Below are positions 4,205 to 29,014 of a stretch of DNA of 38,969 nucleotides, one piece after another; within the stretch, counting starts at the first letter, position 1; each line of letters begins with the position of its first letter. Origin of the DNA: Alphaproteobacteria bacterium (lineage in GTDB: Bacteria; Pseudomonadota; Alphaproteobacteria; Micropepsales; Micropepsaceae); NCBI GenBank assembly GCA_016792565.1, contig JAEUMK010000067.1, positions 1 through 38,969 on the forward strand, written 5' to 3'. Below the pieces are notes generated by a model that saw only the letters and a program-made list of their open reading frames with translations, was not told the origin of the DNA and ran no database searches. The position numbers and the translations under genes were made by a program.

Positions 4205-4765
4205 CTACTTGCGGACCACCTGGTAGCGCGTCAGCTCGATTCGGGCCGCCTCGAAGGACGGGTCGAGCTCGAGCGCCCGCTTCAGGTCGGCATAGGCGCC
4301 CTTGACGTCGCCCAGCGCCTCGCGGGCGACCGCGCGGTTATAGAGCGCGCGCTGCAGCTCCACGCCGGTGGCGAGCGGGATCGCCGCATCGATGGTGGTG
4401 CGGGCTTCCTCGTAGCGCGACAGCTCGATCAGCGCCGCGGCGCGGTTGACCGAGGCGGCGGTCATCGAGGGTTCGATCCTGAGGGCGTTGTCGGTGTCGG
4501 CCAGCGCCTCCTTGGCGTCGCCGCGGGTCACCAGCATGGCGCTGCGGTTGGTGAACGTCGCGGCGCGGTCGCGCGGCGACAGGGCGCCGTTCTCGAGCGC
4601 CTCGGTGCAGTCCTTGATCGCCAGATTGCTGGTTTCGCCGGCCTTGGCGGAGTTGTAGCAGGCCAGTTCCGGCCCGTTGCCGACCACCATGACCGCCGCA
4701 CTGGCGGACCCCAACGCCGCGAACGATGCCGCGGCCAGCGCCATACCGACTGACTTGAAATTCAT
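4205..4765 (-). CDS. Exported TPR-repeat protein
   Basis: 186 residues with a Sec-type signal peptide (about 1-23, ending in SASA), so probably periplasmic. At least three tetratricopeptide-like repeats follow between about residues 60 and 185; the last, with ALGDVKGAYADLKRALELDP, is a clear TPR consensus. A Cys pair (about 36 and 53) brackets the start of the mature protein. TPR scaffolds mediate protein interactions and no enzymatic residues are visible. ATG 4765 has a GGAGGG ribosome site. The gene is divergent from the CNNM-type gene at 4983 and lies upstream of the lipoprotein at 4094 on the same strand, 110 nt apart. Confidence 0.85.
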   Translation of the reverse strand: MNFKSVGMALAAASFAALGSASAAVMVVGNGPELACYNSAKAGETSNLAIKDCTEALENGALSPRDRAATFTNRSAMLVTRGDAKEALADTDNALRIEPSMTAASVNRAAALIELSRYEEARTTIDAAIPLATGVELQRALYNRAVAREALGDVKGAYADLKRALELDPSFEAARIELTRYQVVRK

Positions 4766-4982
4766 CGTGCCCTCCAACCCTGAAGCGCGATCCCACATCC
4801 GACGCCCTTGGCCCCGGCGCCTGTGCGCGCCCTGCAACCATGCTCCCGGCCGCCCCCCTGCGCACCTTGCGATTGCGTGAGGGCGGTAACAAGATCGGGA
4901 GGCGAGGCCGCGGCCCCTTGCCGGCGGCCTTGTTTCGGCGCTGGCGCTCGGGGCACCGGGCCGGATATAAGACCCGCCTTCC

Positions 4983-16159: not shown

Positions 16160-16846
16160 GTGCGTTTCGTATCCGGCGCCATGGCTTCATCACCCTGCGA
16201 CCTCGTGATCTTCGACTGCGACGGCGTCCTCGTGGACAGCGAGGCGATCGCCAACGCGACGCTGGCCGCGGCGCTGTCCGAATGGGGGCTGGCGATCACC
16301 GGGGCCGAGGCCCGGGCCCGCTGGATCGGGCGGTCGATGAAGAGCGTCGGGATCGAACTGCGGGCGGAACTGGGCGACCGCCTGCCCGACGGGTGGCTTG
16401 AGGAGGTCGAGGCGCGCGACTTCGCGCTCTTCCGCGAGCGGCTGGAGGCGGTGCCGCATGTGCGCGGGGCCGTCGAGGCGGTGCAGGCGGCGGGGCTGGC
16501 GACCTGTGTGGCGTCGTCGGGCTCGCACGCCAAGATGGAGGTGACGCTGGGCGTCACCGGCCTCAGGCCTCTGTTCGAGGGGCGCGTCTTCTCCGCCCGC
16601 GAGGTGGCGCGGGGAAAGCCGCATCCGGATCTGTTCCTCTACGCGGCCGCCCGGATGGGCGTGCCGGCCGAGCGGGCGGTGGTGATCGAGGACAGTCCGG
16701 CCGGCGTCGCCGGGGCGGTCGCGGCCGGGATGCGGGTGCTCGGCTATGCCGGGGATGCGCTGACCGAGCGGGAGGCCCTGGCGGCGGCCGGCGCGGTCCT
16801 GTTCGACGACATGCGCGAGGTGCCGCGCCTGCTCGGGCTGGGGTGA
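16160..16846 (+). CDS. HAD superfamily (subfamily IA) phosphatase
   Basis: 228 residues. Motif I is FDCDGVLVDSE (nucleophile D19 and D21), motif II is the Ser in CVASSGS, motif III the Lys in ARGKPHPDLF and motif IV IEDSPAGV. The helical cap between motifs I and II makes it subfamily IA, akin to phosphoglycolate phosphatase, beta-phosphoglucomutase and sugar-phosphate phosphatases such as YieH; substrate is undetermined. The chosen start is GTG 16160 with GAGGTG about 10 nt upstream; ATG 16181 would give 221 residues and a family-typical N-terminus. It follows the EF-G-like gene by 36 nt on the same strand and may be cotranscribed. Confidence 0.92.
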   Translation: MRFVSGAMASSPCDLVIFDCDGVLVDSEAIANATLAAALSEWGLAITGAEARARWIGRSMKSVGIELRAELGDRLPDGWLEEVEARDFALFRERLEAVPHVRGAVEAVQAAGLATCVASSGSHAKMEVTLGVTGLRPLFEGRVFSAREVARGKPHPDLFLYAAARMGVPAERAVVIEDSPAGVAGAVAAGMRVLGYAGDALTEREALAAAGAVLFDDMREVPRLLGLG

Positions 16847-16851
16847 AAGAA

Positions 16852-16874
16852 CGGCCGGGCGCGAGGCCCGGCCG
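16852..16874 (+). terminator. Terminator-like hairpin after HAD gene
   Basis: Perfect 9-bp stem CGGCCGGGC/GCCCGGCCG with a 5-nt loop, beginning 6 nt after the HAD stop. There is no T-tract, so it could be a weak terminator or an mRNA 3' stabiliser. Confidence 0.55.
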
Positions 16875-17054
16875 AAGGTGGCTTGAGGGAGGCGCGGCCG
16901 TCCGGAAAACCTCCGGCCGGTCGCGAAACGCACCGCAGATCGTGCGGATCATTAATGCAAATGACATGCAGATGCACACATGATCCTCTGTATTGTCCAT
17001 TACAGGGGAAAGTGCAACCAGATTTGCGACTTGCTCGCAATAATTGAGATATCC

Positions 17055-17211
17055 GAATCGAGTCAGATGGTTGCGCGACGATCCTCAGGGATCGATTCGG
17101 GTGCTTCGGAGGTTGAGTCGGGATGCTGCGAAATTGAGTCCGGGCGCTGCGATCCCGATTCAGGTGCCGCCGGTCTGGCCCGGCGCGACGAAATCATGAG
17201 TCCGCAGAGTC
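17055..17211. promoter_or_regulatory. Cluster of eight GANTC sites
   Basis: GANTC pentamers start at 17055, 17060, 17094, 17115, 17136, 17157, 17198 and 17207. GANTC is the recognition site of CcrM-type adenine methyltransferases. Four copies are spaced exactly 21 bp (two helical turns) because they open each unit of a 21-bp repeat. The next interval is 41 bp, close to twice that. Sites are seen; any regulatory role is inferred. Confidence 0.7.
17094..17177. repeat. Four 21-bp degenerate tandem repeats
   Basis: Units 17094-17114, 17115-17135, 17136-17156 and 17157-17177. Each begins GA(T/G)TC followed by a G-rich GGTGCT- or GGATGCTGC-like segment. The second half diverges, while the leading GANTC is invariant. 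Not a CRISPR: no unique spacers separate the units. Confidence 0.75.
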
Positions 17212-17333
17212 GCATGGCGCCGCACGTTGTCACCCTGTGCCGGTTCGCGGCCGCCGGCCCGAACGCTGTTCGCGGGACAGGCCGCAAACGACCCGTCCGC
17301 CCGTCGGCTCGCGCCCCGACATCAGAACAGTGT

Positions 17334-18302
17334 TTATTCGGCGGCGGCCGCGGCGTGGTCGTGCCCGGCTACCGCGAGGAAGCGTTCGGCCTCGAGCGCC
17401 GCCATGCAGCCCATGCCGGCGGCGGTGACGGCCTGGCGGAACACCTTGTCGGTCACGTCGCCCGCCGCGAAGACGCCGGGGATCGCGGTGGCGGTCGAGT
17501 CCGGGGCCTTCAGAAGATAGCCCTCCTCGTCCATCGGGAGCTGGCCCTTGAAGATCTCGGTCGCCGGGACGTGGCCGATGGCGACGAAGAGGCCGTCGGC
17601 CGCCAGCGTGCCGGTCGCGCCGGTCTTGAGGTTCCGCAGAGTCACCCCGGTGACCGAGACCGGGTCGGCCGTGCCGGTGATGTCGACGACCGCGCTGTCC
17701 CAGACGACCGAGACCTTGGGGTTGGCGAGGAGACGCGCCTGGTTGGTCTTGTCGGCACGCAGGCTGTCGCGGCGGTGGACGAGGGTCACCTTCGAGGCGA
17801 AGTTGGTCAGGAACAGCGCCTCCTCGACGGCGGAGTTGCCGCCGCCGACGACCACGACCTCCTTGCCGCGATAGAAGAAGCCGTCGCAGGTCGCGCAGGC
17901 CGAGACGCCATGGCCCTGGAAATGCTGCTCGGCGGGCAGGCCCAGCCACTTGGCCTGGGCGCCGGTCGCGATCACCAGAGCGTCGCAGGTGTAGATCGCG
18001 CCGTCGTCGCCCCACAGCCGGAAGGGGCGGCGGGAGAGATCGACCTTCACCACCGTATCGTGGACGAACTCGGTGCCGACGTGGCGGGCCTGCGCCTCCA
18101 TCTGCTCCATCAGCCAGGGGCCCTGAACGGCCTCGGCGAAGCCGGGGAAGTTCTCCACCTCGGTGGTGATGGTGAGCTGTCCGCCGGGCTGCATGCCGTG
18201 GATCAGGAGCGGCTGGAGCATGGCGCGGGCGGCATAGATGGCCGCCGTGTAGCCGGCGGGGCCGGAGCCCAGAACGATGACTTTGGCGTGGCGTTCGGCC
18301 AT
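17334..18302 (-). CDS. trxB: Thioredoxin reductase
   Basis: 322-residue FAD- and NADPH-dependent flavoenzyme that reduces thioredoxin in the cytoplasm. FAD-binding GSGPAGYTAAIYAARA (from residue 12), the redox CATC pair at 136-139 (ACATCDGFFYR), NADPH-binding VVGGGNSAVEEA and the late FAD motif AAGDVTD are all intact; length is typical. The C-terminus ends in an Ala/His-rich run (DHAAAAAE). ATG 18302, stop TAA at 17334. It is divergent from lrp, a trxB–lrp pairing that I recall from Rhizobiales. Confidence 0.97.
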   Translation of the reverse strand: MAERHAKVIVLGSGPAGYTAAIYAARAMLQPLLIHGMQPGGQLTITTEVENFPGFAEAVQGPWLMEQMEAQARHVGTEFVHDTVVKVDLSRRPFRLWGDDGAIYTCDALVIATGAQAKWLGLPAEQHFQGHGVSACATCDGFFYRGKEVVVVGGGNSAVEEALFLTNFASKVTLVHRRDSLRADKTNQARLLANPKVSVVWDSAVVDITGTADPVSVTGVTLRNLKTGATGTLAADGLFVAIGHVPATEIFKGQLPMDEEGYLLKAPDSTATAIPGVFAAGDVTDKVFRQAVTAAGMGCMAALEAERFLAVAGHDHAAAAAE

Positions 18303-28974: not shown

Positions 28975-29014
28975 TCGGCAAGGGGCAATGCAACTCGGCA
29001 AGGGGCAATGCAAC
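28975..29014. repeat. Exact 20-bp tandem duplication
   Basis: TCGGCAAGGGGCAATGCAAC occurs twice head-to-tail (28975-28994 and 28995-29014) with no mismatches, upstream of the TonB-receptor gene and 56 nt from the divergent RraB-like start. The identity implies a recent duplication or selection for two identical binding sites. Confidence 0.85.

Follow-up and report, generated by a model that had tools for sequence, protein, structure and literature searches.

The GANTC array between two gene ends

What does a crowd of GANTC, the recognition sequence of CcrM, do at a place where two genes end and none starts? This question is raised by contig JAEUMK010000067.1 of a Micropepsaceae bacterium (Alphaproteobacteria; assembly GCA_016792565.1, 3.07 Mb, here G000), which was analysed over its whole length of 38,969 bp and is called the window in the following (contig C114 of G000). 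It carries an array of eight GANTC sites within 157 bp, starting at 17055, 17060, 17094, 17115, 17136, 17157, 17198, and 17207, respectively, whereas about one site per 500-770 bp is found elsewhere, so the crowding pointed out in a preliminary description of this DNA is real. From what is conserved among related genomes, selection appears to act on the GANTC sites themselves, and the array looks like an autonomous, single-copy DNA element of this genus. The window as a whole contains 79 GANTC instead of the 201 expected from dinucleotide shuffles, and this depletion makes the cluster even more striking. At least eight GANTC in a given 157 bp have a Poisson probability of ~9e-10, and chance is excluded as the origin of the cluster. 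The array is built as follows:

17055..17211, plus strand, GANTC array with sites at relative positions 0, 5, 39, 60, 81, 102, 143, and 152
17055..17119, plus strand, left core module GANTCGANTC-N29-GANTC-N16-GANTC, which includes TTGCGC-N17-GATTCG
17094..17161, plus strand, 21-bp phased run of GATTC, GAGTC, GAGTC, and GATTC, starting at 17094, 17115, 17136, and 17157
17198..17211, plus strand, right module GAGTC-N4-GAGTC, to which the relatives usually add N2-TTG, also present upstream of ccrM

Four of the sites are indeed exactly 21 bp apart, as had been described, but a common helical face does not hold for all eight, since the first pair is spaced by 5 bp and the last one by 9 bp. The TTG of the right module is degenerate in the G000 array (gcATGG). 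The surrounding gap of 487 bp, which had also been reported before, lies between the 3' ends of two convergent genes with stops at 16846 and 17334, respectively:

16160..16846, plus strand, HAD-family hydrolase (left neighbour)
17334..18302, minus strand, trxB, thioredoxin-disulfide reductase (right neighbour; TIGR01292, 402 bits)

Conservation among congeners

Three congeners have an orthologous gap, namely the complete relative SO-S41 (G011), G013, and G014. In all three the sites recur at positions 0, 5, 39, and 60, the site at 81 is present except in G013, and the closing pair is 9 bp apart. Within an ungapped block of 65 bp aligned over four species, all 16 GA/TC columns are invariant, compared to none of the four N columns and 12 of the 45 other columns (Fisher P 1.5e-7), and GANTC is the only pattern of the type XYNZW that is repeatedly fixed. 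The 100-bp block around the sites is 60-67% identical between the species. Fixed GA/TC, a free middle base and diverged surroundings are what one would see if the CcrM recognition sequence is kept and not a longer fixed sequence. Sites and spacings are thus retained in the relatives instead of drifting freely, only the middle N does so, and together with the presence of ccrM and gcrA this supports the core of the original idea, a CcrM-dependent array under selection.

The fifth species, G012, in which no match to trxB reached the threshold used, carries a recognisable array at C50:10709-10940, with sites at 0, 9, 39, 60, 122, and 131. Its neighbours there are a plus-strand gene that ends towards it on the OmpW side and a DALR-domain protein, read as glyS-like, whose 3' end faces it, hence again convergent genes. 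The number of 21-bp units varies (two in G012, three in G014) at constant spacing: the distance from 60 to 122 in G012 is 62 bp, as from 81 to 143 in G014, so the G012 array is shorter by one unit and the indel followed the 21-bp unit. Lying beside different genes and lacking the small-RNA candidate described below, the G012 array argues that the element is independent of its neighbours. We infer that it moved between loci rather than arising twice.

CcrM, GcrA and the region upstream of ccrM

The source genome encodes a CcrM orthologue, which matches NF050803 with 630 bits over positions 2-350 of 350 and contains a RAMA domain; the match falls below the cut-off of 830 of this narrow model. 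GcrA (PF07750) is encoded in all five congeners. A second GANTC-rich control region with modules common with the array lies in front of the methyltransferase gene, and conserved TTAA elements are seen there as well:

G000 contig C111 (locus L203), ~4650-4940, GANTC-rich region upstream of ccrM; also at loci L101, L099, and L100

This region holds 10-13 GANTC with conserved phasing in G000, G011, G013, and G014, and seven in G012. Like the array, it shows conserved phasing and the modules GATTCGTGAATC and GANTC-N4-GANTC-SSTTG, whereas it differs in being a gene-start region with TTAA elements. In G000, G011, G013, and G014, GANTC-N4-GANTC-N2-TTG is nearly confined to the ccrM upstream region and the array: in G000, two copies precede ccrM and one lies inside a coding region (C59), and the array copy of G013 reads TTA. 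G012 has the motif additionally in a dispersed repeat.

Standing of the array within genomes and family

For the genome-wide ranking, pattern searches were combined with an 800-kb sample of SO-S41. When groups of three closely spaced GANTC were scanned for, G000 gave 27 matches, of which the longest overlapping chains correspond to the array and the ccrM upstream region, so that G000 is not filled by a family of equal clusters. GANTC occurs once in 769 bp in the SO-S41 sample, where the two densest clusters, one of them upstream of ccrM, have seven GANTC in 160 bp compared to eight in the array. Among the 96 genomes of the family set, the exact four-site pattern is found once per genome in G000, G011, G013, and G014; the remaining 92 lack it, and a reversed control pattern gave no match. 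No real second copy of the 221-bp array region was found in G000. The matches beyond the array in its own genome are short and mostly chance, by which an origin from a repeat family is rejected. A plasmid similarity search gave nothing informative. The cluster is also not a trait of the trxB neighbourhood, as the region downstream of trxB showed none in 26 loci from other genera of the family, nor in 74 other alphaproteobacterial loci.

Some further GANTC groups were noted. A partial look-alike of the left half, with sites at 0, 5, and 39, is located in SO-S41 upstream of a phosphate-selective porin (G011:C1:2952337-2952487, L199, at 2952394); it was set aside, being porin-upstream and not found in the other species, and the one at 2675069 lies within a coding gene and was treated as chance. 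Other GANTC triplets of similar sequence are shared by G000 and SO-S41 at G000:C105:17544 and G011:C1:3224834, and at G000:C10:2734 and G011:C1:2735855, which suggests a wider conserved GANTC code in the genus. Triplets also adjoin parS-like sites (209 kb in SO-S41, C64:4583-4642 in G000) in the likely origin region, at G011:C1:208102-211312 and G000:C64:4143-6850, respectively.

Coding sequence, structured RNA and replication origin

Three further readings of the locus were rejected. In G000 the 21-bp units can be translated as [DE]SG, and their changes are synonymous, as would fit protein-coding heptad repeats, yet no reading frame is open through the array in all five species. Folding z-scores are unremarkable in all but G013 and there is no consistent structure, which speaks against a structured RNA, and no known RNA family matched at the gathering threshold. 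A replication origin was rejected on position, since the array of SO-S41 lies at 1.806 Mb of 4.443 Mb, 1.6 Mb apart from the parS-like sites. This is ~72% of the way from the origin region to the opposite point of the chromosome, the terminus itself not having been located; the sampled GC skew of SO-S41 was too noisy for placing the origin.

Orientation of the sites and a possible reader

On the plus strand, the middle base of the array sites is G in 18, A in 9, T in 9, and C in one case (n=37), compared to G in 200 and C in 190 cases in SO-S41 at large. C or T precedes 31 of the 37 sites, and 27 of them have G or T as N. GcrA of Caulobacter is reported to be active at YGAKTCK sites (PMC7987155), the motif with which the array counts were compared, although it is itself disputed between species. 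Furthermore, GcrA protects the ctrA P1 promoter if the plus strand is methylated, but not if the minus strand alone is (PMC3667746). The one-way orientation of the sites fits a strand-selective reader, for which it is suggestive evidence.

At a probability of roughly 0.4, and judged from sequence comparison, we favour the explanation that the array is a methylation-dependent platform for GcrA or another reader of N6-methyladenine, and, linked to the ccrM circuit, serves titration or timing. CcrM would methylate the array late in the cell cycle, and the passing replication fork would leave it hemimethylated. A methylation-dependent protein, with GcrA as the best candidate, might then bind several phased sites together, so that replication of the locus and its later remethylation would shift the amount of reader left free for promoters, the ccrM promoter among them. 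A role in titration or timing is favoured because the array lies between gene ends and not at a gene start. In a bolder and rather doubtful form of this idea, the uniformly oriented, phased array would be a chromosomal sensor, on which a strand-selective methyl reader, be it GcrA or a hypothetical SeqA analogue, assembles only on one of the two hemimethylated sisters or only after remethylation, with titration feeding back on ccrM; if that were true, replication of one locus would time the methylation cycle.

Several points weigh against the platform. Titration is hypothetical and its least supported step, and GcrA is best studied at promoters with sigma-70 and not at arrays. In G013 a site of the 21-bp run has been lost and the last pair does not keep the phase, and the asymmetry of N was counted over related sequences, so that the single species do not count as independent evidence. 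In addition, GcrA of Brevundimonas has almost no preference for an extended motif (PMC7987155), and GANTC is over-represented between genes in Alphaproteobacteria already (PMC3973325).

A neighbouring small-RNA candidate

The preliminary description had named an unannotated small RNA among the possible roles of the sites and had considered promoters dispensable between two 3' ends. A small-RNA candidate is in fact located in the same gap, but as a separate neighbour, as it is missing beside the array of G012; a possible promoter of this candidate on the left side of the gap makes the second assumption unsafe.

16842..17000, minus strand, small-RNA candidate of ~150 nt with 5' hairpin, covarying hairpin, CCUCCCUCAAGC, and terminator GGCCGGGCCUCGCGCCCGGCC-GUUCUUU
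16986..17017, minus strand, possible small-RNA promoter, TTGCRC, 16-17 bp, and a weak -10, inferred from the alignment
17024..17040, no strand, palindrome TTGCGACTTGCTCGCAA between small-RNA candidate and array

The candidate was confidently found only in four genomes of this genus, where its model scores 142-146 bits, in contrast to 4.9 bits at best beside the G012 array. CCUCCCUCAAGC and the strong terminator are conserved, and the RNA carries an anti-Shine-Dalgarno-like CCUCCCUC. The sequence of the second hairpin varies while its pairing is mostly kept, and two-sided changes are seen in 12 of the 29 pairs predicted for the whole structure. The possible promoter was not found by a sigma-70 scan. 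SorX (Rfam RF02784) matches over its full length in all four species with 24.3-36.8 bits, below the gathering score of 46.6; the likeness thus extends over the whole model, whereas the candidate stays sub-threshold and is not part of the array. The palindrome is roughly preserved in three relatives and absent in G012. To the right of the array, a GAACRNTGTT-like motif (window 17261-17271) was also noted in the relatives, including G012 beside different genes. At some distance, at 28975-29014 of the window, lies a perfect 20-bp tandem duplication, TCGGCAAGGGGCAATGCAAC.

Other explanations

The next most probable explanation, although unlikely, is a multi-site GcrA/CcrM promoter from which an unannotated plus-strand transcript starts inside the array and extends into the convergent gene at its 3' end. 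It is retained because the promoter-like arrangement TTGNNN-N17-GANTCG of the left module, with a TTGNNN-like hexamer 17 bp before GANTCG, is kept in all five species (as TTACGA in G013); moreover, the right module resembles the unit GAGTCttttGAGTCggTTGACC-N17-GGTTAA upstream of ccrM, and a good plus-strand terminator closes the right end in SO-S41. Yet this terminator is not conserved, being weak in G013 and missing in G000, G014, and G012, the last site of G014 is only ~30 bp away from trxB, and there is neither a conserved ORF (open reading frame) nor a conserved RNA fold. An E. coli-type sigma-70 promoter was found in none of the five gaps, with a scan that does not cover alphaproteobacterial promoters well. 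The array may instead serve as an upstream control region that makes the minus-strand small RNA cell-cycle regulated, as candidate RNA and likely promoter adjoin it in four species; we regard this as improbable, because the array of G012 has no such neighbour and most of the array lies 60-220 bp upstream of the putative start.

Still somewhat less probable is a nucleoid-organising or sister-chromosome marking site, where a SeqA-like protein would bind the phased hemimethylated sites behind the fork. The position between convergent genes in both genomic contexts would suit it, but there is a single site per genome, in SO-S41 neither at the origin nor at the opposite point, and we know of no SeqA-type reader of hemimethylated GANTC, although no search was made. 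That the array has no function and is a degenerate tandem repeat or a mere trace of shared ancestry is disfavoured and very improbable: the 21-bp units do resemble an old tandem duplication and only five species were available, but all GA/TC positions of four sites are kept in a 100-bp block that is otherwise so diverged.

Comparison to known systems and significance

The GcrA/CcrM promoters of Caulobacter and Brevundimonas (ctrA P1, mipZ, podJ) share with the array the GANTC sites, which in the array would likewise be methylated by CcrM, an encoded GcrA, and an orientation of the sites that may resemble YGAKTCK, but they have one to few GANTC at a gene start, whereas the array has 8-10 phased sites between gene ends. 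The SeqA-bound GATC clusters of E. coli are similar as clustered adenine-methylation sites with helical phasing, and the array would likewise be hemimethylated behind the fork; Dam/GATC and SeqA are a different system, though, the array motif being GANTC. The locus datA of E. coli is a DnaA titration locus that binds DnaA and IHF. It resembles the array in being short, non-coding, and away from the origin, with binding sites that are proposed to sequester a cell-cycle regulator, and differs in the proteins bound, titration by GANTC sites being a proposal.

Regulation by GANTC methylation in Alphaproteobacteria is understood mainly via promoters. With a conserved single-copy array that has no gene start and contains modules of the ccrM region, the methylation state itself would be the selected output. 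The array would also offer a concrete site for asking whether the marks set by CcrM serve to time the cell-cycle machinery or to titrate it, and since SO-S41, with its complete genome, carries it, this is testable.
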